Origin: a virus
Length of the DNA: 23,110 bases
Virus record (IMG/VR): IMGVR_UViG_3300011258_001038
Location: 1 to 23,110 of that record
Strand: one strand, 5' to 3'
Shown: positions 1-14,937 of the stretch, piece after piece
Position numbering within the stretch: position 1 is the first letter of the stretch
Layout of the letters: every line of letters begins with the position of its first letter
The notes under the pieces: model-generated
What the model saw: the letters and a program-made list of their open reading frames with translations, nothing else
The model's database searches: none
What the model was told of the DNA's origin: nothing
Position numbers and translations under genes: made by a program

Positions 1-125
1 CTATACCCGTTGTTGTAGGGCGAAGCGAACAGTTACCAATTTGTAGTTGTGAAAATACAGAACGCATAGATGTTGGTGGTGGCGATTGGGTTATACATTG
101 CAAAGATTGTGGCAAAAATTGGTAA
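1..125 (+). CDS. 3' end of a zinc-ribbon small protein (5' truncated by window)
   Basis: Reading from base 3 there is an open frame to TAA at 123-125. The last 40 residues contain a CxC pair (ICSC) and a CKDCGKNW end, so four cysteines in a CxC/CxxC layout that would bind one zinc. The segment VVGRSEQL is almost the same as VVGQSEQL in the gene at 3149-3394, and the DNA at 12-35 matches 3281-3304 at 23 of 24 bases, so the two genes are related. The stop is followed after 4 bases by the hairpin at 130-189. Function unknown; a zinc-stabilised cassette-type protein is the most that can be said. The start lies outside the window. Confidence 0.6.
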   Translation, partial: IPVVVGRSEQLPICSCENTERIDVGGGDWVIHCKDCGKNW

Positions 126-129
126 TTGC

Positions 130-189
130 GTACAACGGTTTGGCTAAAATGCGTATCCCGTAGGGTATGCTTTTTAGGCGTTGTTATAC
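130..189 (+). repeat. attC-like imperfect hairpin 1
   Basis: The left box GTACAAC (130-136) is followed by GGTTT and a long imperfect hairpin. The arm 142-159 pairs with 163-179, with a few bulges and one T-T mismatch, around a 3-base loop. The outer bases ACAACG (132-137) pair with CGTTGT (179-184). The right box is GTTGTTA (180-186) or GTTATAC (183-189). The order RYYYAAC-like box, spacer, long arm, loop, long arm, GTT box is that of an integron attC site. The boxes deviate from strict RYYYAAC/GTTRRRY, so homology to attC is inferred from architecture. A simple terminator is less likely: the stem is mismatched and the T-run lies 8 bases beyond it. Confidence 0.6.
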
Positions 190-219
190 CCTGTTTTTTT
201 GAGGGTCGGCAAAATAATT

Positions 220-271
220 TACAGAAAAGTGTATTTTTATTAGGTGGTTAATACAGAAAGCTGTATTTTTG
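220..271 (+). promoter_or_regulatory. Promoter with two tandem operator-like repeats
   Basis: Two 20-base copies, 220-239 and 252-271, match at 17 of 20 positions and start 32 bases apart, about three helical turns. The second contains a perfect 5-bp palindrome TACAG-aaag-CTGTA (252-265); the first has the degenerate form TACAG-aaaa-GTGTA. The second copy runs directly into TATTTTTG (264-271), an exact match to the Bacteroidetes -7 consensus TAnnTTTG, 20 bases before the ATG at 292. A good -33 element is not seen. The layout suggests that a dimeric regulator binds both sites and controls the 292-927 genes. The regulator is not identified. Confidence 0.5.
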
Positions 272-291
272 ATTTATCAAAACGATAATAA

Positions 292-561
292 ATGAAAAAG
301 ATAGTAACATATCAAACAGAAAAAATAAAAATAGAATTTGAATCTGCAAATCAAACAAGAATCGTTGATAGAATGGAAGGCGTTAGAATTGCAGATGCTC
401 ACGGTACTAAGGATTTTATCATTAACGGAAAAACTTATTTAGTAGAGTGGACAATGAAGTATAAAAATACTCACAGCGTTCAACTTCATTTTGAAGGATT
501 TACTTGTGGAGATTCTGAAAAGAAAATGATTGAACATATACTTTCAAAATACGGAATATGA
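292..561 (+). CDS. Hypothetical small protein (89 aa), first gene of cassette-like unit B
   Basis: An 89-residue soluble protein beginning MKKIVTYQTEK, with alternating beta-type stretches (KIKIEFES, DFIINGKTYLVEWTM, HSVQLHFEGF) and a C-terminal helix (SEKKMIEHILSKYGI). There are no transmembrane segments and only one cysteine, so no metal site is evident. It is not recognised. The ATG follows the TAnnTTTG promoter by 20 bases, and its stop overlaps the next start (ATGA at 558-561), so translation of the two is probably coupled. Codon use is AT-rich, unlike the phage genes from 3465 on. Confidence 0.75.
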   Translation: MKKIVTYQTEKIKIEFESANQTRIVDRMEGVRIADAHGTKDFIINGKTYLVEWTMKYKNTHSVQLHFEGFTCGDSEKKMIEHILSKYGI

Positions 562-776
562 AAACCGCTAAACCTTTTAATCATCATAAATTTTGGAGAA
601 ATGAATTTTTAGACGTTATTTTTTATGATGGTGGTGATTTAACATATCAAAGATGGTGTATTTCAATGGATGGAAATTATATAACCTCAAGAGGTGGTTT
701 AAATCAAGCAAAAAACTTTGTAAACCAAAGAAGGGGTGTAAAAACAAAATGGATTAAAATAAATTCACATGAGTAA
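558..776 (+). CDS. Hypothetical small protein (72 aa)
   Basis: A 72-residue basic protein beginning MKTAKPFNHHKFW. It contains several aromatic residues (FWRNEF, YQRWC, KWIKI) and a short GG-DLTYQRW-ISMDGNYITSRGGL stretch. This could be a small beta-sheet fold such as those found in small modification or DNA-binding proteins, but no family is recognised. It overlaps its upstream neighbour by 4 bases and its downstream neighbour by 8 bases, which indicates one translationally coupled operon of three genes. Confidence 0.7.
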   Translation: MKTAKPFNHHKFWRNEFLDVIFYDGGDLTYQRWCISMDGNYITSRGGLNQAKNFVNQRRGVKTKWIKINSHE

Positions 777-927
777 AGACTTAATAAAATGGAGTGAACT
801 GAGCCGTAAACTAAGTGGTTCAGATAACTCTATCCGACCAAATAAAATACCCAAGAAATACGAAAGAAAAGTAAATCGTTTGCTATGGATTCTAGATTTG
901 TGGGGGCGTTGGGCAAATAGGGTATAA
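769..927 (+). CDS. Hypothetical basic small protein (52 aa)
   Basis: This short gene encodes a 52-residue protein beginning MSKDLIKWSELSRKLSG, with a middle section SIRPNKIPKKYERKVNRLLWILDLW. It is strongly basic and predicted helical. The pattern W-S-x-L-S-R-K-L-x-G, then I-R-x-N-K-I-P-K-K, then a C-terminal amphipathic helix resembles tiny proteins I associate with Bacteroidetes phages, which would suggest nucleic-acid binding, but no function is known. The ATG at 769 lies within the end of the preceding gene. Its stop TAA (925-927) is part of the following attC-like box. Confidence 0.6.
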   Translation: MSKDLIKWSELSRKLSGSDNSIRPNKIPKKYERKVNRLLWILDLWGRWANRV

Positions 928-965
928 CAATTGGATATGTGCAACACTGCATATATCCTACCAAT
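922..965 (+). repeat. attC-like hairpin 2, terminal to the first cassette block
   Basis: After GTATAAC (922-928), 930-942 pairs with 949-965. The core is GGATATGTGC / GCATATATCC (9 of 10 plus a G-T pair) around the loop AACACT, with ATTGG / CCAAT outside a 3-base bulge. No GTT box follows CCAAT, so the right half of the core site is missing or altered. The 19 bases at 926-944 recur exactly at 3403-3421, where the second cassette block ends. This position marks the change from cassette-like to phage-like genes. Confidence 0.5.
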
Positions 966-991
966 TTACATAAATATAAACACCAAAACAA

Positions 992-1474
992 ATGAATTAC
1001 CAAGACATCCAAAAGCTAGAAAAGCTAAACCATGCCTTTGACTTTATATGTCAGTACATGGACATTGAGCCTGATAGATTAAAAGAACGGAATCGGAAGT
1101 TATCCGTAGTATTTGCCCGGCAAACATTCTACTACCTAATGCGGAAATATCACTATGACGTTCCGTTTGAACTTATCGGAGGATTTGTAAACTACTCTCA
1201 TGCAACCGTGATGCACGGAAACTCGGCAATATTAGATCGGATGAAAATTGAGCCTAGATTACGGAAATACATAAACGATTTAGAAACGGCCTATACTCCG
1301 ACTATTGAGAAGTTTAAATACATCGAACCAACGCACTTAAAGGACACGACTATTGCAAGCCTCCAAGGTCGGATAGATAAGCATTTAACGGACTGGAAAG
1401 CAATGAGCAAATTAGTAGTAAGCCTATCAAATCAGATTGAGGAGATAAACCAGTTAATCAATAGTAAGTTGTAA
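992..1474 (+). CDS. DnaA domain IV-like DNA-binding protein without an ATPase domain
   Basis: 160 residues. The segment at about 35-82 (VVFARQTFYYLMRKY, then ELIGGFVNYSHATVMHGNSAI) follows the C-terminal DnaA domain IV pattern: the R-Q and Y-L helix, the I-G-x-x-F turn, and SHATVMHG in place of the signature D-H-T-T-V-L-H-A that contacts the DnaA box. There is no Walker A or AAA+ region, and the protein is about one third of a full DnaA. The C-terminal 60 residues are helical. Such free-standing domains occur in Bacteroidetes phages and probably bind origin or promoter sites; the role here is inferred. The ATG follows an A-rich leader (CACCAAAACAAATG). Confidence 0.75.
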   Translation: MNYQDIQKLEKLNHAFDFICQYMDIEPDRLKERNRKLSVVFARQTFYYLMRKYHYDVPFELIGGFVNYSHATVMHGNSAILDRMKIEPRLRKYINDLETAYTPTIEKFKYIEPTHLKDTTIASLQGRIDKHLTDWKAMSKLVVSLSNQIEEINQLINSKL

Positions 1475-1521
1475 ATTATTTCTTTACAACTGACTTATGT
1501 AAAAAAATTATTTTACATTTG
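1468..1521 (+). promoter_or_regulatory. Promoter with two perfect 8-bp palindromes
   Basis: GTTGTAAA (1468-1475) and TTTACAAC (1483-1490) form a perfect inverted repeat around 7 bases, overlapping the stop of the DnaA-like gene. ATGTAAAA (1497-1504) and TTTTACAT (1511-1518) form a second one around 6 bases. The second overlaps the exact -7 promoter match TACATTTG (1514-1521), 24 bases before the ATG at 1546. Palindromes on a promoter suggest operator control. A transcript hairpin from the first palindrome is also possible, but it lacks a G/C-rich stem and U-tract, so it is not a standard terminator. Confidence 0.5.
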
Positions 1522-1545
1522 CTTAGAATTTAAACCCAAAACACC

Positions 1546-1767
1546 ATGACACTAGACATCGAACTAGGAGAAAAATTAGTAGTAGTAACAGTACACTACA
1601 CTATTGAAGAGGGGCAAGCGGAAACGCGGACAGACCCACCCTACCCAACTACCATAGAAATATCCTCAATCGAGCATAAGCGCGAGGACATCCAAGACAT
1701 TATTACGGATGAGATATTTGAAGACATCGAGAATCAATTGTATAATTTTCACGGACTAGAATACTAA
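1546..1767 (+). CDS. Small acidic phage-type protein (73 aa)
   Basis: 73 residues, acidic, with a beta-rich N-terminus (GEKLVVVTVHYTIEEGQ), a DPPYPTTIEISSIEHK segment and an acidic helical end (DIQDIITDEIFEDIENQLYN). The layout (beta strand, Pro-rich loop, then IEI-x-x-V/I and E-D-I-E-x-x) recurs in small conserved proteins of tailed phages. I know no function for them. It is the first gene after the palindromic promoter and overlaps the next start (TAATG at 1765-1769). Confidence 0.7.
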   Translation: MTLDIELGEKLVVVTVHYTIEEGQAETRTDPPYPTTIEISSIEHKREDIQDIITDEIFEDIENQLYNFHGLEY

Positions 1768-1910
1768 TGATAAAAGTCACCAACAACTTCAACAACGAGG
1801 TATTTGTAACCTCATCAACTGGACAAGACTTAAAAGCCGAGATCCGAGCAGAAGCCAAAAAACACGGAAAGAAAGTAACCGATTTTAAAACAGAGCCTTT
1901 TAGGGCGTAA
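1767..1910 (+). CDS. Hypothetical protein (47 aa)
   Basis: A 47-residue frame opens at the ATG overlapping the previous stop (TAATG). The sequence begins MIKVTNNFNNEVFVTSS and ends in a basic helix (AEIRAEAKKHGKKVTDFK), as if a short beta hairpin were followed by one helix. The tight overlap, the shared strand and the absence of any other gene in the interval make it probable. It is not recognised. Confidence 0.55.
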   Translation: MIKVTNNFNNEVFVTSSTGQDLKAEIRAEAKKHGKKVTDFKTEPFRA

Positions 1911-1924
1911 ACCAAAAACGGAAA

Positions 1925-2206
1925 ATGCAAGAACCAATAAAATATAAGGACGTAATAGATTTAGGCTTTAAACGCGAAGAGATACACGATTCGCAGTATC
2001 TTGACCAGTTCGGTTATGATTACGCCACAGTAACAAAAAACATCACTAAAAGCCTTTATTTTGATTGGGACATAGAAACGCGATATGCAACTTTAGTCCG
2101 ATTGAAAAACCATAAGGAAGGGGATATTGGGAACGTACTACCAATAACCAACCTAGAGCATTTGAAATTATTAGTAAAATTTTTCACGGAAAATGCCACA
2201 AGATAA
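1925..2206 (+). CDS. Hypothetical protein (93 aa)
   Basis: 93 residues, soluble, beginning MQEPIKYKDVIDLGFKREEIHD, with a mid-region YDYATVTKNITKSLYFDWDIE and a C-terminal helix LEHLKLLVKFFTE. The opening resembles small proteins of Bacteroidetes phages that start by stating a 'DLGF' motif and contain an aspartate/tyrosine-rich sheet; no activity is assigned to them. The A-rich leader CGGAAAATG supports the start. The next gene begins inside its last codons. Confidence 0.7.
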   Translation: MQEPIKYKDVIDLGFKREEIHDSQYLDQFGYDYATVTKNITKSLYFDWDIETRYATLVRLKNHKEGDIGNVLPITNLEHLKLLVKFFTENATR

Positions 2207-2354
2207 AACACCACCATCGACAGGAAAGAAAAGCCTCGGAAGCTATTTAAAGAACCGCTACGACATCCGATGGGCTTTGGAGAATAAACACACGGAAACA
2301 CTTTTAACTAATCACCTCGCCTTACATTTTGGGATATACGAGAGTAATAAGTGA
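2193..2354 (+). CDS. Hypothetical basic protein (53 aa)
   Basis: A 53-residue protein beginning MPQDKTPPSTGKKSLGSYLKN, with a helix RYDIRWALENKHTETLLTNHLA. It overlaps the previous gene by 14 bases and shares the phage-like base composition. The stop (2352-2354) is 3 bases from the next cassette-type box (2358-2365). It is not recognised. The basic flexible N-terminus followed by a helix would be compatible with nucleic-acid or protein binding, but nothing more can be shown. Confidence 0.5.
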   Translation: MPQDKTPPSTGKKSLGSYLKNRYDIRWALENKHTETLLTNHLALHFGIYESNK

Positions 2355-2357
2355 TTG

Positions 2358-2390
2358 CCGCTAACGGCAACGGCTATGTTGTCGTTGCGA
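2358..2390 (+). repeat. attC-like hairpin 3 (compact)
   Basis: The box CCGCTAAC (2358-2365) is followed by GGCAAC-GGCTAT-GTTGTC (stem 5 of 6) and the box GTTGCGA (2384-2390). AAC pairs with GTT outside the stem, giving the attC order R''-L''-loop-L'-R' in 33 bases. The alternative pairing GCAACG/CGTTGC (2367-2372 with 2383-2388) is also perfect. The upstream cassette that would own this R'' box has no matching GTTAGCGG start in the window. Confidence 0.45.
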
Positions 2391-2414
2391 ATATTAACCG
2401 AAAATTAGATTAAA

Positions 2415-2732
2415 ATGAAAAGCGAAAATTACAGACAGTTACTTAACAACGAAAGAGATTCTTTAGAACTAAAGCCAGAAGAATTTGACAATACTCTTAT
2501 GCACTTTGCTGAATTGTACCACACAGAAAAGCAATGCAATATAGCCAATGTTGTAAAACGTACTTTGGAGCAAAAAGAAGCAGCTTATCTTTGTGTGAAT
2601 ATGTGGTATGAAAAAGATTACGATAGCTCAACCCCTGATGATGAAGTTGCAAGTATGGATAAAGAAGCTGCGGAATTAAATACACAAATTAAGGTGTTAA
2701 GAAATATACTTTCAGAAGTGGGTGACCTGTGA
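2415..2732 (+). CDS. Hypothetical helical protein (105 aa) of a cassette-like unit
   Basis: 105 residues, acidic and mostly helical, beginning MKSENYRQLLNNERDSLELK. Long heptad-like helices occur at both ends: ELYHTEKQCNIANVVKRTLEQKEAAYL, and EAAELNTQIKVLRNILSEV near the C-terminus. It could be a small coiled-coil dimer. No enzyme motif is seen and it is not recognised. It is bounded by attC-like sites at 2358-2390 and 2742-2837, so it forms a single-gene unit. The leader CCGAAAATTAGATTAAAATG lacks a Shine-Dalgarno site. Confidence 0.7.
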   Translation: MKSENYRQLLNNERDSLELKPEEFDNTLMHFAELYHTEKQCNIANVVKRTLEQKEAAYLCVNMWYEKDYDSSTPDDEVASMDKEAAELNTQIKVLRNILSEVGDL

Positions 2733-2741
2733 TAGTATGTT

Positions 2742-2837
2742 TTACAACGGTTTGTGTATGTGTAGTAAGGCTATGCACGTACATTGAACCGAAGAACTGA
2801 ACTAAATTAGCCTTATTACATATACACTTTGTTAGCG
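2742..2837 (+). repeat. attC-like long hairpin 4
   Basis: The box TTACAAC (2742-2748) is followed by GGTTT. The 19-base arm 2754-2772 pairs with 2809-2827 at 17 of 19, and the two exceptions become G-T pairs. The loop is 36 bases, and the right box is GTTAGCG (2831-2837). At 96 bases this falls in the size range of known attC sites (roughly 55-145). It is the clearest structural attC candidate here. The TTTG/GTT spacing and the unpaired spacer bases beside the arms also fit. Confidence 0.6.
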
Positions 2838-3102
2838 TTTCGTTTTTGAGCGTTGGCATTAATAACTAAAATTATGGAAAACATTGAAAATTTAGAAGTG
2901 ATTCAATTGAACACGAACAAAGAAGGTAAGTTGATTGCAACAATTAGTTACCAAGATACAACAGTACAAGACTTGAATAATGGTTATGCAATAATTGACG
3001 TGCCTGTAAATGTGAGAGCATTACAATTGAGTTCAAGAGATAATGTACTTGTAGACCAATCTATTAAGGGTGAATCTGTGGTGGTGGCAAATGAACGCTA
3101 AC
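2831..3102 (+). mobile_element. Cassette-like unit E with complementary ends
   Basis: The unit starts at GTTAGCGTT (2831-2839) and ends at AACGCTAAC (3094-3102), perfect reverse complements over 9 bases. The single gene between them (2874-3101) has its stop inside the terminal box. This is the second unit in which start and end match each other better than they match the adjacent hairpin halves, as the integron cassette model predicts. Movement is inferred. Confidence 0.5.
2874..3101 (+). CDS. Hypothetical beta-rich protein (75 aa)
   Basis: 75 residues from the ATG at 2874. An upstream TTG at 2853 is in frame, but ATG after AACTAAAATT is the better start. The protein (MENIENLEVIQLNTNKEGKL, then strands LIATISYQD, YAIIDVPVNV, ESVVVANE) is predicted all-beta, with no cysteine, no membrane segment and no recognised motif. 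It fills the unit between attC-like sites 4 and 5, and its TAA lies in the next box. Confidence 0.65.
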   Translation: MENIENLEVIQLNTNKEGKLIATISYQDTTVQDLNNGYAIIDVPVNVRALQLSSRDNVLVDQSIKGESVVVANER

Positions 3103-3126
3103 GGTTTGTGTAAACGTCAGTTGCGG
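3096..3126 (+). repeat. attC-like hairpin 5 (compact)
   Basis: CGCTAAC (3096-3102) is followed by G, GTTT-GTGT-AAAC (perfect 4-bp stem), GTCA and GTTGCGG (3120-3126). The outer AAC pairs with GTT. Only 31 bases long, it is shorter than most attC sites, so it may be a reduced form. It sits between two small genes exactly where the cassette model puts a boundary. Confidence 0.4.
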
Positions 3127-3148
3127 ATAATTTAAACGAAATATTATT

Positions 3149-3394
3149 ATGAATACGGAAACAGTAACAGTACATCCAAAGAACGATGGCTTTGAAATTG
3201 TAGTACAGCACGATCAAACAGGCAGCGCATACGGAATTGATTTATCGAAAGACGCATACGAGCAATTGCGTTTACATTTTGTTGTAGGGCAAAGCGAACA
3301 GTTAAAATGCCCTAATTGTGAGCTTGACTATGATAAAGAAGAGATTGAAATGTTTAGGGGGCTTTGTGAAAGTTGCAGAGACAGGGCATTTTGA
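3149..3394 (+). CDS. Zinc-ribbon small protein (81 aa)
   Basis: 81 residues. The C-terminal part holds C54-P-N-C57 and C73-E-S-C76, a four-cysteine zinc ribbon or knuckle. The N-terminus (VTVHPKNDGFEIVV, AYGIDLSKDAYEQLRLHF) looks like two strands and a helix. The VVGQSEQLKCPNC section matches the protein ending at 125. Zinc ribbons of this size usually bind nucleic acid or a protein partner; which one applies here is unknown. The leader AACGAAATATTATTATG is A/T-rich. It is the last gene of the second cassette block. Confidence 0.75.
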   Translation: MNTETVTVHPKNDGFEIVVQHDQTGSAYGIDLSKDAYEQLRLHFVVGQSEQLKCPNCELDYDKEEIEMFRGLCESCRDRAF

Positions 3395-3398
3395 TTGC

Positions 3399-3432
3399 CT
3401 ACAACAATTGGATATGTGCAATATTAACCAAA
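3399..3432 (+). repeat. attC-like hairpin 6, terminal to the second cassette block
   Basis: CTACAAC (3399-3405) precedes TTGGATAT-gtgca-ATAT-taa-CCAA (3408-3431), the same TTGGATAT / ATAT..CCAA fold as at 930-965. The right-hand GTT box is again absent. The 19-base copy 3403-3421 is identical to 926-944. A third, partial copy GGATATGTGCAAC lies at 3449-3461, immediately before the NUMOD1-type gene. Confidence 0.45.
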
Positions 3433-3464
3433 ACACCTCAATCTATGGGGATATGTGCAACTAA

Positions 3465-3728
3465 ATGAATCGGATAAAATGCCATTGCGAAAAACCCGCA
3501 ATAAAAAACAATCTTTGTAAGGGATGCGGAAAGGCTGAAAACAAACACCGCGTTCCAGTAGTCCAAATGGATATCGACGGAAACGAAATAGAACACTTTC
3601 CAAGCATAATAGAAGCATCCTATGAAATGGACATTGCCCCTATCGGAATACGGAAAGCTATTGACGGACGACAAAAGACAGCAGGGGGGTATAAGTGGAA
3701 AAAGTATAAATCAGAAATAACAAACTAA
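3465..3728 (+). CDS. NUMOD1-type DNA-binding protein with N-terminal zinc knuckle
   Basis: 87 residues. The N-terminus has CHC and CKGC (cysteines near residues 6, 8, 18, 21), a possible zinc knuckle. Residues 31-80 (VVQMDIDGNEIEHFPSIIEA, then IRKAIDGRQKTAGGYKWKKY) match the NUMOD1 helix-turn-helix plan: dGxxixxFxSixEA, an I-xxAIxG turn, and the AGGYKWK end. NUMOD1 normally sits beside HNH or GIY-YIG homing nucleases; here no nuclease domain is attached, so it may act alone or in trans with the nuclease at 5321-5929. The stop overlaps the next start (TAATG). Confidence 0.75.
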   Translation: MNRIKCHCEKPAIKNNLCKGCGKAENKHRVPVVQMDIDGNEIEHFPSIIEASYEMDIAPIGIRKAIDGRQKTAGGYKWKKYKSEITN

Positions 3729-4084
3729 TGCAAGTAAAAACAATCGCAGTAAAACACCCTGAATTAGGTGAAATTACCGTACACTCAGAAGTACCATACG
3801 AATTAATGCAACAAGTCGGAACGATCGTACCGCATTATTCAAAAATGAAACCTTTTTTTAGCGGTACAATTTGGGAAAATGACGATAAAACCTTTACGAT
3901 TCAATATCTTAGAATGGTAAATACTGAAATAGTAGGCGTCGGAGAAAAAAGAGATGGTAATAGTATTCAAGGAGGGGTGACAATAATAACTAATAAGCGG
4001 GTAGATAATAACTCAGATAGAATTGAAATATATCCTAGCGCGGTTTTATCAGTAATACGACAAAAGGAAAATGCAACAGATTAG
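3728..4084 (+). CDS. Hypothetical beta-rich protein (118 aa)
   Basis: 118 residues, beginning MQVKTIAVKHPELGEITVHS. Predicted strands alternate with short turns (TIWENDDKTFTIQYLRMVN, GGVTIITNKRV, RIEIYPSAVLSVI). There is no signal peptide, metal site or membrane segment. It is not recognised. It overlaps its neighbours at both ends (1 base upstream, 14 bases downstream), so it belongs to the 3465-5269 operon with the acyltransferase and glycosyltransferase. Confidence 0.7.
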   Translation: MQVKTIAVKHPELGEITVHSEVPYELMQQVGTIVPHYSKMKPFFSGTIWENDDKTFTIQYLRMVNTEIVGVGEKRDGNSIQGGVTIITNKRVDNNSDRIEIYPSAVLSVIRQKENATD

Positions 4085-4586
4085 CCCAAACGCCAAGATT
4101 CACCCGACAGCTATTATAGGTCCGAACGTAATTATCGAGGGAGATGTTGAAATTGGCCCATATTGCTTAATCGGACTTCCTGCCGAAAAGAAAGGAGCTA
4201 CCGAGGATAAAGGAGTAGACATAAAACAAGGGGCTAAACTATTCGGACATTGTACCATAGATAGCGGAACGGAAAGAGCCACTATTATAGGCGAGGACGT
4301 TTGGTTAATGAAAGGCGCACACGTCGGACATGATGCCATTATAGGGGCTAATTGTGTTCTATCATGCCATTGCGCAATAGGTGGACACGTTGTATTAAGT
4401 GAAAATTGTAACATCGCTTTAAACAGCTCAGTTCATCAATATTTAGAACTACCAGAGGGAACGATGCTAGGAATGAATAGCTGCCTAACAAAAAAAGCAC
4501 AAATGCAGCCCTTTGAAATTTGGGCGGGCGTTCCTGCTAGACGGATTAAAACAAATGAGGTGTTATTAAATAGGCTAAAACTATGA
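4071..4586 (+). CDS. LpxA-like left-handed beta-helix acyltransferase, short form
   Basis: 171 residues of hexapeptide repeats (I/V-x-x-x-x-x) from residue 8 to about 140. The order follows LpxA (UDP-GlcNAc O-acyltransferase): IGLPAEKKG, TIDSGT, then AHVGHDAIIG with H84/H87 where LpxA has its catalytic HxAHD, then IGGHVVL and SSVHQY. The LpxA C-terminal helical domain (about 70 residues) is missing and is replaced by a GVPARRIK end typical of sugar acetyltransferases. LpxA starts lipid A synthesis; this shorter protein more likely acylates a sugar, but the substrate is inferred. Its 3' end overlaps the glycosyltransferase start (ATGAG at 4583), pointing to a shared pathway. Such a gene is unusual in a phage packaging region. 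Confidence 0.8.
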   Translation: MQQISPNAKIHPTAIIGPNVIIEGDVEIGPYCLIGLPAEKKGATEDKGVDIKQGAKLFGHCTIDSGTERATIIGEDVWLMKGAHVGHDAIIGANCVLSCHCAIGGHVVLSENCNIALNSSVHQYLELPEGTMLGMNSCLTKKAQMQPFEIWAGVPARRIKTNEVLLNRLKL

Positions 4587-5269
4587 GAATAATTGTACAA
4601 AGCGCAATGCACGGAAGGTATAAAACAGTAAAAAAATGCCTCGATTACTTAATGATTGTAGCGGATAATTTAGCGCCCGATATTGATTTATGTTTTATCT
4701 ATGGTTATACCAACAAAGAGGATGGGAATCTACTAGAAAGCTACTCAGAACGATTACAAAGCTATAAAGTAGGGAATATACCTCTTTGGAATAAGTTTCA
4801 CCAAGGATTTGAATTAATGAAAGGCCAAGATTTTGACGCGGTTATTTGCATAGGTTCGGACGATATTTTTAATGAGGACTTTGTGAGGTTTATTACTGAG
4901 CAAATACAAAACTACGATCATATTGCATTTTCGGATATATACTTTTATTCCTTACAGACTGAGAGGCATTATAGATGGCCTGGATATACAAACCACCGAA
5001 AAGGAGAGCCAGCAGGAGCAGGAAAAACATACTCAAAGGAATCACTAGAACGGATTGACTATAAAGTTTTTCAACCTAGTAAAGACATTGGACTAGATGC
5101 CGGAACCTTTGACCTAATAAAAGATCACGGACTAAGCTATAAGTTTTTCAGTTTAAAAGAGGAAGGTTTATATTTATGTGATATAAAGGACGGACAAGGA
5201 CTAACACCTTTAGAGAGGTTTTTTAATTTAGAAAGCGGAGAACACGAACAAGGACTACCAAAACCATAG
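4583..5269 (+). CDS. GT-A-type glycosyltransferase-like protein
   Basis: 228 residues. An N-terminal beta-alpha start (MRIIVQSAMHGRYKTVKKCL) leads to FDAVICIGSDDIFNEDFV, where GSDD (91-94) sits as the DxD-like metal/nucleotide-sugar site of GT-A enzymes. Further on, a GAG (145-147), S-x-E-S-L and GLD (170-172) pattern is shared with the protein at 14236-14937, so the two are paralogues. No membrane segment is seen. Its coupling to the LpxA-like gene suggests that they build or decorate one glycan. Whether the target is host envelope, virion or DNA cannot be told from the sequence. Confidence 0.7.
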   Translation: MRIIVQSAMHGRYKTVKKCLDYLMIVADNLAPDIDLCFIYGYTNKEDGNLLESYSERLQSYKVGNIPLWNKFHQGFELMKGQDFDAVICIGSDDIFNEDFVRFITEQIQNYDHIAFSDIYFYSLQTERHYRWPGYTNHRKGEPAGAGKTYSKESLERIDYKVFQPSKDIGLDAGTFDLIKDHGLSYKFFSLKEEGLYLCDIKDGQGLTPLERFFNLESGEHEQGLPKP

Positions 5270-5320
5270 AACAATCGGAAAGCAACTAATTAACTACCTT
5301 AGCAAAATAATACAAAGGAC

Positions 5321-5929
5321 ATGGCTTACACTAAAAAACAGATAGATAGCATCTTTGATTCAATATGTGAAAGGATAGAACAAGGCCAATCAGTTAACCT
5401 AATTTTAAAGGATAGCGATATGCCATCTTCTAGGACGTTTTGGAAATGGTTGAACTCCGATGATATTGATACTTCACGATATGATTTGGTAATACAAAAC
5501 CCAAAGTATAAAAAACGAATAAAATGTCAAGCAAACGTTTTAGGAAGTAGAGCCAAAAAACTAAATGATTACCGTAGGGATAATGCGCGAAAGGTGAACC
5601 AGGTAAAATTCCCAAATAGCAGTATTTACATTATAAAATCAAAAGACGATAATATTTATAAAATCGGTGTTTCTAGTAATCCTTCACGAAGGTTAAAAGA
5701 CATAGAGGCAATACTTCCTTTTGACATTGAGACGATTTTAGTCAAAAAAGTGAATCAAGCTTATGACTTAGAGTTTATTATTCATAATTATTTAAAGGAA
5801 CATCATTTAAAAGGAGAGTGGTTTAAACTTCAAAGTATAAAAGAAATCATTAATATTATAGAGACATGGGAGCAGGAAGGCCAAGCACATACGACTACGA
5901 GTTATGTAAAGAAATATGCGATCAAATAG
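5321..5929 (+). CDS. TerS-like helix-turn-helix fused to a GIY-YIG (T5orf172/MUG113-type) nuclease
   Basis: 202 residues. Residues 5-48 (SICERIEQGQSVNLILKDSD, then SSRTFWKWLNSDD) resemble the N-terminal helix-turn-helix of the terminase small subunit encoded just downstream. Residues 100-183 form a GIY-YIG-family domain: SIYIIKS, then IYKIGVSSNPSRRLKDIE with the Arg pair (123/124), the Glu in LEFIIHNYL (E151) and the closing GEWFKL. The start follows AATACAAAGGACATGG. The end overlaps TerS by 64 bases. It may be a homing-type nuclease that captured a terS 5' end, or a packaging nuclease guided by the same DNA site as TerS; both are inference. Confidence 0.8.
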   Translation: MAYTKKQIDSIFDSICERIEQGQSVNLILKDSDMPSSRTFWKWLNSDDIDTSRYDLVIQNPKYKKRIKCQANVLGSRAKKLNDYRRDNARKVNQVKFPNSSIYIIKSKDDNIYKIGVSSNPSRRLKDIEAILPFDIETILVKKVNQAYDLEFIIHNYLKEHHLKGEWFKLQSIKEIINIIETWEQEGQAHTTTSYVKKYAIK

Positions 5930-6291
5930 CAGATGGACAAAACATTAAAGCTGTTTTAAAATCTGAAAAACATTATCCAGCATGGTCAACTTTCCGATTG
6001 TGGAAACAAGATCATGATGAATTATCGGCCCTGTATGTAAAGGCTGTTCAAGATAAGGCAGAGTCGGTTGATGAAAAGATTGACGAAATAATGGAGGATG
6101 TTCATATTGGAACTATTGAGGCATCGGTAGCTAATGTTATGATACAGACCCTTAAATGGAAAGCAAGCAAGTATTACCCTAAGATGTTTGGGGACGCTCA
6201 AAAAGAACCAAGCGCGACAATCAACTACAACGTAAACGTAGATAAGGACGAAATTAAGGGTATATTAGATGACTTTAACAATGAATTATAA
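5866..6291 (+). CDS. terS: Terminase small subunit
   Basis: 141 residues. It opens with GAGRPSTYDYELCKEICDQI, the GRPs-x-Y start typical of small terminases, then A-D-G-Q-N-I and W-S-T-F-R-L-W of the DNA-binding helix-turn-helix. A helical oligomerisation region follows (AVQDKAESVDEKIDEIM), then LKWKASKYYPKMFGD, a motif found before the portal-binding tail in many TerS proteins. TerS recognises the packaging site and regulates TerL. It lies directly upstream of TerL, separated by 104 bases. Confidence 0.85.
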   Translation: MGAGRPSTYDYELCKEICDQIADGQNIKAVLKSEKHYPAWSTFRLWKQDHDELSALYVKAVQDKAESVDEKIDEIMEDVHIGTIEASVANVMIQTLKWKASKYYPKMFGDAQKEPSATINYNVNVDKDEIKGILDDFNNEL

Positions 6292-13800: not shown

Positions 13801-14252
13801 TAACGGCAAAGATTCAGCAAGTAGATATTAATGCACTTGTATCACGGTTTAAAAAAGCGGGGGCAGAACTTAATAAGTCCGTAGCTGATGATTTAGCCGA
13901 AAGCGCTTTAGAGATTCGCAACGGGGCAATTAGGCGCGCACCCGTCGATGGTGGACGTTTACGCGGGGATATTAATATCCGTAAGATTAGGCCAAATGGC
14001 TTACTTTGGAATGTAAACGTAAAAGCTAAATACGCGCCTTACATGGAGTTTGGGACGGGTAAAAAAGTGAACCTTACCGAATTAACAGACGCGGGTTTTC
14101 CTGAGACATACGCAGCCCAATTTAAAGGCCAAGGAATTAAGCAAGTGAACCTACAACCGAAACCCTTTTTATTTCCAAGTGTAAACGAGGAAGCACCGCG
14201 ACTAATGAAACAACTAAGAAACACAATCCGAGTAAGTGGGCGTAAATTCTAA
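13797..14252 (+). CDS. Neck protein (HK97 gp10-like)
   Basis: 151 residues. A helical start (VSRFKKAGAELNKSVADDLA) leads to RNGAIRRAPVDGGRLRGDINIRK, the AP-V-D-x-G-x-L-R pattern of the gp10-like family, then NVKAKYAPYMEFGTGKKVN and LQPKPFLFPSVNEEAPRLMKQL. Such proteins join the head connector and the tail. It overlaps the upstream gene by 4 bases, and its last codons overlap the next gene's GTG start by 17 bases. Confidence 0.85.
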   Translation: MITAKIQQVDINALVSRFKKAGAELNKSVADDLAESALEIRNGAIRRAPVDGGRLRGDINIRKIRPNGLLWNVNVKAKYAPYMEFGTGKKVNLTELTDAGFPETYAAQFKGQGIKQVNLQPKPFLFPSVNEEAPRLMKQLRNTIRVSGRKF

Positions 14253-14937
14253 ATTTAAGGTAGTCGTATTTACTCCGATATGGGGTAGGCATGATATTGT
14301 AAAGATATGGCATCAAGGGATTGATAGAATTAAAAACTATTGGCCTGATGCTATTGAAATTATTCCTTTCTGCATGGTATCAAATAAGGCTGATAGAGAC
14401 CTTATTGATTCTTTTGGTTATCAATACACCTATTGTGATAATAAACCTTTAGGATTGAAGCATAACGCGGGCGCAATGGCTTTAAAAGATATTGACTTTG
14501 ATTACATATTACAATTAGGATCGGACGACCTTATTACAAACGAATATTTGGAATATGCTTTAGCGGCAATGGTAGAAGGCAAACAACTATTTGGAGTTGA
14601 TAAGCTACTATTTTGCGAACCAAAGAAACAAGAAGCTTGTAGTTTTCATCTTACCACACAATCAAATAATCTTATTGGCGCGGGTCGATTTATATCGCGC
14701 GAGGCAATCGAGAAACTAAATTATAAACTTTGGCCCGATGGAATAAATCGCGGCCTTGATATGACTAGCCAATCAAATCTAGCTACAATTGGGATTAGTC
14801 CAGAGGTTTTAGAGATTCCTAAGTATTGCGTTTTAGATGTCAAGTCGGACACTAATATTTGGAGCTTTGAACACTTTGCCGACAATCACCCGAAAGCGAG
14901 TTACAACCTTGTAAAACATTTATTTCCCGAAATATGA
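14236..14937 (+). CDS. Second GT-A-type glycosyltransferase-like protein, inside the tail operon
   Basis: 233 residues, starting at GTG 14236, which overlaps the previous gene; no later ATG would keep the first beta strand. VVVFTPIWGRHD is the opening strand of a GT-A fold, and FDYILQLGSDDLITNEYLEYAL carries GSDD (95-98) as a DxD-like site. NNLIGAGRFISREAIEKLNY and NRGLDM match the same GAG..S-x-E and GLD points in the gene at 4583-5269. It sits between the gp10-like and tail-terminator genes, a position normally held by structural genes. It could glycosylate the virion or a host glycan; this is inference. Confidence 0.65.
   Translation: MGVNSKFKVVVFTPIWGRHDIVKIWHQGIDRIKNYWPDAIEIIPFCMVSNKADRDLIDSFGYQYTYCDNKPLGLKHNAGAMALKDIDFDYILQLGSDDLITNEYLEYALAAMVEGKQLFGVDKLLFCEPKKQEACSFHLTTQSNNLIGAGRFISREAIEKLNYKLWPDGINRGLDMTSQSNLATIGISPEVLEIPKYCVLDVKSDTNIWSFEHFADNHPKASYNLVKHLFPEI

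Follow-up and report, generated by a model that had tools for sequence, protein, structure and literature searches.

Can a phage keep a gene-capture platform of the kind that bacteria keep in integrons? Integrons are bacterial platforms that stockpile genes, and the extra domain of their integrase, IntI, is thought to be essential for integron function. The question is raised by the window analyzed here, the whole stretch of 23,110 nucleotides of the IMG/VR record IMGVR_UViG_3300011258_001038 (positions 1 to 23,110). This 23.1-kb viral contig encodes the terminase, portal and major head genes of an HK97-type phage. At its left end, on the + strand, small genes of mostly unassigned function are interspersed with AAC...GTT elements: units of one to three small genes, all in one direction, are set apart by intergenic elements, every one with a left-hand AAC box and the internal ones also with a GTT box on their right. 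A preliminary description of this DNA had seen in them six hairpins with an AAC box and the layout of an integron cassette array.

We conclude that the region very probably consists of two cassette platforms of the integron type in a Bacteroidetes phage, and that their units would be moved by an integron-type tyrosine recombinase. The sequences back this reading by the gain and loss of units, by exact breakpoints at AAC in the cultured Freya phages, by box pairing within units, by a folding bias toward one strand, and by attI-like array ends. Platform 2 spans window 2355-3464; the features of both platforms are listed in Table 1.

A folded site family in Bacteroidota and their phages

A search pattern derived from the sites of the window and of a related phage contig, L004, matched 48 stretches in viral contigs and 108 in the genomes of prokaryotes, most of them Bacteroidota, and a covariance model, R1, was built from 46 sites. 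As the family is defined by a window-derived motif, R1 matches do not amount to an unbiased census. The model scores window 127-192 at 67.7 bits (E 9e-16; a site in the training set) and 2739-2840 at 45.5 bits (E 1.6e-9; outside the training set). Judged by these matches, the two sites, S1 and S4, belong to an attC-like family spread over Bacteroidota and their phages. R1 also finds tandem arrays in viral contigs and chromosomes, L203 carrying 15 sites on one strand within 12.9 kb, and four family sites in the Polaribacter phage P12002L. In a published assay, an attC of P12002L recombined with IntI1 (PMC9892861); it may or may not be one of these family sites.

As to the six hairpins first proposed, the AAC/GTT elements between units stand, with S1 and S4 far beyond chance. 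Those at 922-965 and 3399-3432 carry no GTT box because they appear to be attI-like array ends and not attC. The element at 3093-3155 is weak and the one at 2358-2390 is undetected by R1; it is position and boxes that support these two.

Which strand folds? With DNA parameters, the coding strand of 127-192 folds at z -2.57 and the opposite strand at z -0.4, the values for 2739-2840 being -2.0 and -1.2. On the AAC..GTT strand, wobble pairs are heavily G.T over A.C (251:14, or 218:15 minus a conserved CGT/ATG pair), which marks this strand as the folded one. Little is conserved in the flanks past AAC, GTT and the adjoining base. These folding statistics, together with the swap test and the Freya phages described below, point to an attC property, folding of one strand with a break between AA and C of that strand. 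The expected bottom-strand fold is present: it lies on the bottom strand of the site, which is the coding strand in the window phage because phage genes are inverted.

This inversion is seen in the longest open reading frame (ORF) between sites, which has the direction of the site in 45 of 48 viral intervals and the opposite direction in 37 of 44 chromosomal intervals (Fisher p 4e-15, intervals inside one array being non-independent). Three of the seven chromosomal exceptions come from a single locus, L133, where replication genes of phage type are also present. Compared with the chromosomal cassettes of the same site family, those of phages have inverted genes. Capture of chromosomal cassettes by the phage, as suggested earlier, finds no support in view of this opposite orientation and of the sharing of units: of 53 phage units, 27 have a match in another phage contig and three in a locus of the chromosomal set, both sets having been chosen via the site pattern. 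In Vibrio, excision is strongly raised when the folded attC strand lies on the lagging-strand template (PMC11023631). By analogy, the orientation of phage cassettes could likewise raise excision.

Units as probable circles, shared and exchanged

In an integron array, the two boxes of an attC come from different cassettes, and the boxes of one cassette meet upon circularization. The two boxes of one site show no excess of complementarity over shuffled ones, and the circle test was therefore run on the boxes of one unit. Here complementarity reached 62% against 40% for shuffled boxes in viral units (z 8.2, n=50), 73% against 36% in genomes (z 11.8, n=43), and 69% against 46% in integrase-bearing viral loci (z 7.4, n=42). 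Pairing within units without pairing within sites would be as expected for cassettes moving as circles. In the window, box ends pair well in two of the four complete units. A swap test pointed to the side of the break: among locus pairs, partly non-independent, the hairpin is common to nine of 17 with the right-hand unit alone shared and to none of five with the left-hand unit alone. The hairpin goes with the right-hand unit, which places the break on the AAC side. As in integrons, tandem cassettes are separated by folded sites, two strong and two weak in the window.

Related phages, whose comparison had been proposed in the preliminary description, do differ by whole units. L001 (L003 and L006 being the same contig) shows 99.6% identity to the window from position 979 through the rest of the compared stretch, with cassettes 1-978 missing. 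L001/L006 and L004/L005 have no platform 1, and in them the DnaA-C gene (window 992) comes right after a DnaB gene; the DnaA-C protein of L004/L005 is 91% identical to that of the window. Between the conserved genes flanking platform 2, L004 holds entirely different units. The window departs from L004/L005 at the left boundary of this platform (2355..2390), and the right-end sequence is kept at the end of the L004 array (7472) despite the different cassettes.

Parts of window cassettes recur in other phages. Bases 1-35 occur unchanged in an array unit of L229, L203 repeats the first 50 nt of the cassette B2 body, and an integrase-bearing viral locus, L314, has a 42-nt match of 90% to cassette B3. 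The body of cassette A1 ends in GTTATACCC...GGGTATAAC, which are inverted repeats (pair I13, 94% over 16 nt), and the phages L223 and L216 have units with the same ends and a different middle. Within the window, the cassette fragment 1..135 resembles the cassette gene 3149-3394 (repeat D1). Elsewhere, a unit of L203 matches L348 full-length, and units are common to integrase-less and integrase-bearing viral contigs. As judged by reading, L004:2735-5109 has helicase-like and DNA methyltransferase-like genes in place of window gene 1925-2206.

Gain of units in cultured flavophages

Can the addition of units be followed in phages from culture? There are ten Freya records from one host, differing in length, of which six were compared (Freya_1, 2, 5, 6, 8 and 10). 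Freya_1 has no units before the integrase gene, Freya_2 has an additional 842 bp, Freya_5 a further 902 and Freya_6 a further 472. Each insertion lies between AAC and the constant ACCCCTATAAC, and the remaining compared stretch is identical. When Freya_8 is set against Freya_10, the same 902-bp unit is missing, with edges directly after AAC. The breakpoints are fixed to within the repeated box.

In some cassettes of Freya_10 (L391), the hairpin arms seem by reading, with no statistic, to enclose an ORF, which would then lie inside the site loop. In the Danklef flavophages (L389, L390), length differences fall outside the array. What is annotated as integrase there is a 44-amino-acid fragment with an ORF on the opposite strand next to it, and only half of the protein lies within the tblastn match; the integrase gene may therefore be broken.

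Array ends and integrases

Tyrosine recombinases adjoin arrays in Tenacibaculum, Crocinitomicaceae and others. Among 149 sampled genomes of one class, 18 have sites and 88 this integrase, and in seven of the 18 a site lies within 4 kb of the integrase. A short element of AAC plus hairpin between chromosomal array and integrase was taken as attI, and a second model, R2, was built solely from 14 chromosomal integrase-adjacent sequences. Its top two matches in the 23-kb window are 913-968 and 3390-3427, the third having E 1.6. For 3390-3427 E is just 0.22, and it is the position that makes the match to an attI-like end convincing. R2 also matches beside integrases outside its training, in L271, L273 and weakly L272; in other integrase-less phages, the R2 search for attI-like ends gave no convincing match. 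Like an integron, the array would have a putative attI at one end.

The predicted chromosomal integrases are relatives of IntI without its extra domain: the IntI-specific domain is absent from them, and none scores above the TIGR02249 cut-off. Beside the chromosomal integrase of two genomes, a divergent gene for 132 amino acids, zinc-ribbon-like by reading (L262:16417-16815, L272:8721-9119) and without a match in Pfam or NCBIfam, is a possible partner. Several of these integrases in the class sample lie less than 300 bases from where their contig stops, as if assembly had broken off in the adjoining array. A Persicobacter plasmid (L288) carries three integrases with SPLD ends inside 10 kb.

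Viral stretches with a gene for a relative of the integrase number at least 585, Xer relatives possibly among them, and the loci analyzed are the best 80 of these. About 34 of the 80 have sites at E up to 0.1, and the 99 site matches all share the strand of the integrase gene. Of 79 viral integrase loci, 64 show a conserved TAACTATTATATATA-like motif ahead of the integrase by a loose pattern. The phage integrases form one group in the tree (support 93/98). TerL (one PHROG) was found in six of 33 integrase-bearing viral contigs tested, so most of these contigs are phages by IMG/VR label only.

What, then, moves the units of the window phage? An integrase gene next to attI, present in chromosomal relatives and other phages, is absent from the window contig, which is hence filed as an integrase-less platform and not as a complete integron. 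An unrecognized recombinase, as once supposed, is supported for related phages, in the form of a phage clade of integron-type integrases, and is absent from the window contig itself. Array-bearing contigs of 71 and 93 kb and the P12002L record (48.7 kb) have no tyrosine recombinase either. The window phage would most likely use an integrase in trans, from the host or a co-infecting phage, or from the unsequenced part of its own genome.

Weighing the explanations

Several observations fit poorly with integron-type platforms. Two internal window sites are weak or undetected with R1, a model tuned on a motif from the window and L004, and the boxes of units B1 and B3 match poorly. The boxes depart from RYYYAAC/GTTRRRY, and extrahelical bases of the classical attC type, expected on the R''-L'' arm, are not clearly present (48 unpaired T on the other arm over 182 sites, with no uniform pattern). 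Many 'left G' bulges, probably a product of cropping, were left out of account. The 23.1-kb window contig, a fragment, has no tyrosine recombinase. As for Freya, R1 barely detects its cassettes (E 0.19), so that architecture and integrase homology are what tie Freya to the window, and its integrase is a long branch of unsure placement.

Could the units be exchanged without a site-specific integrase, by homologous recombination between repeated hairpins? The sites inside one array are similar, the Freya phages carry RecT and the window contig lacks an integrase; but neighboring hairpins are very different and the breaks nevertheless fall at the short AAC box, every addition in the Freya_1, 2, 5, 6 series is at the attI end, and pairing of boxes within units would have no role, all of which makes this very unlikely. 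Less credible still are fixed RNA elements of a phage operon, terminators or 5' leaders, in which ordinary mosaicism would account for the units and RNA for the coding-strand folding. Phage genomes are indeed mosaic, and phage sites precede a gene and fold on the coding strand. However, chromosomal sites fold on the same AAC..GTT strand, which for their cassette genes is the template; an Rfam scan of window 1-6000 returned no relevant match; and RNA elements predict neither box pairing confined to units, nor exact breakpoints at AAC, nor the attI-like sites found next to integrases. Transposons that move as single strands (IS200/IS605 or REP/RAYT type) would share the folding of hairpins on one strand, yet the ends here are inverted boxes particular to each unit and not fixed guide sequences, and the tandem arrays run up to an attI-like site next to a tyrosine recombinase; on these grounds, no search aimed at a Y1 transposase having been made, we regard this origin as extremely improbable.

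Integron-type platforms would work as follows. Each platform would be a row of units closed at the right end by an attI-like site, and each unit would run from hairpin and GTT box through its gene or genes to an AAC box. The AAC..GTT strand, in the window the coding strand, would fold into a hairpin, and an integron-type tyrosine recombinase would cut it after the AA of the AAC box. On closing, the excised unit would form a circle with its own two boxes paired, and this circle would be joined to attI directly after AAC, beside the newest cassette. The inverted genes may let phage cassettes be read with the phage operon. Cassettes would circulate among phages, with a separate clade, including the Freya isolates, encoding the integrase. 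The chemistry, the circle and the outside origin of the integrase acting on the window phage are what we infer. Beyond the window, it seems probable that Bacteroidetes phages run an integron system of their own, with an integrase clade without the extra domain of IntI, a phage attI and an inverted, phage-specific pool, so that cassettes, attI and integrase would share one reading direction, with natural gain at attI in Freya, and with integrase-less phages using the pool in trans.

The platforms and their surroundings

Table 1 Features of the two cassette platforms (window coordinates).
Feature	Position	Strand	Remarks
Platform 1	1..978	+	Left end outside contig, left junction unseen; absent in L001/L006 and L004/L005
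Right part of cassette, truncated by contig start (ORF 3-125)	1..135	+	Terminates at AAC box 134-136
attC-like site S1	127..192	+	Box GTACAAC, hairpin, box GTTATACCC
Cassette A1	136..927	+	Hairpin first, then genes 292-561, 558-776, 769-927
attI-like site of platform 1, AACAATTGGATATGTGCA...TGCATATATCC	913..968	+	Top R2 match in window, E 0.001
Left boundary of platform 2, weak site	2355..2390	+	Boxes CGCTAAC / GTTGCGA; directly after stop of conserved gene 2193-2354
Cassette B1, gene 2415-2732	2365..2747	+	Limits set by AAC/GTT boxes; missing from L004
attC-like site S4	2739..2840	+	Stem of 20 bp, its G.T pairs on coding strand; boxes TTACAAC / GTTAGCG
Cassette B2, gene 2874-3101	2748..3101	+	Start box GTTAGCG against end box CGCTAAC 7/7; box overlapped by stop codon
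Weak attC-like site S5	3093..3155	+	Boxes CGCTAAC / GTTGCGG; R1 16.2 bits, E 0.27
Cassette B3, gene 3149-3394	3102..3404	+	Start and end boxes match poorly
attI-like right end of platform 2, AACAATTGGATATGTGCAATATTAACC	3390..3427	+	Without second hairpin arm; second-best R2 match, E 0.22

Most cassette genes have no assigned function in Pfam or PHROGs, and blastn of window 1-5300 against named phages gave no matches. A NUMOD-like gene for 87 amino acids (3465-3728) lies immediately downstream of platform 2. By reading, one hexapeptide acyltransferase-like and two glycosyltransferase-like genes occupy 4071-4586, 4583-5269 and 14236-14937.

Comparison with known systems

Integrons have been reported in Bacteroidota (PMC8618304), and the IntegronFinder 2.0 paper credits Salinibacter with a complete one (PMC9024848). 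That phages hold integrons and attC clusters is already published: Qi et al. 2023 describe phage integrons and clusters of attC sites lacking integron-integrases (CALINs), the latter including the virulent Polaribacter phage P12002L (PMC9892861). Relative to that paper, the present analysis adds the inverted-gene phage pool, the attI-like ends and the phage integrase clade; divergent attC directions in P12002L are given there, and the parts consulted do not mention inverted cassette genes as a rule. Bartlau et al. 2021 took the integrases of Freya, Danklef, Leef and Ingeline as a sign of a potentially temperate lifestyle (PMC8776804). The proteins considered here are the same, annotated there as integrase, and the words "integron" and "cassette" are absent from the main text of that paper. 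For the Freya protein, the array suggests an integron integrase. A word search of the open-access literature brought up no description of the inverted phage pool, of the clade of integrases or of the Freya series, and all three appear to be new.

If the reading holds, phages would keep gene-capture platforms of their own, with reversed gene orientation and a recombinase without the supposedly essential domain, and the presence of an integrase gene in a phage would not by itself indicate lysogeny. The reading would also account for some of the small variable genes in flavophages, and Freya on Polaribacter would offer a cultured system for the direct study of cassette capture.

How close, then, do these platforms come to classical integrons? 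They differ in integrases without the extra domain of IntI and in boxes other than RYYYAAC/GTTRRRY, and their extrahelical bases are unclear. The chromosomal integrase here faces the array, as in Treponema (PMC3607928); phage cassette genes are inverted and the phage integrase is co-directional with them. What they would share with classical integrons are cassette arrays, a folded strand cut between AA and C, a G after AAC, unit box pairing over some nine bases, insertion at attI, and a tyrosine recombinase related to IntI.

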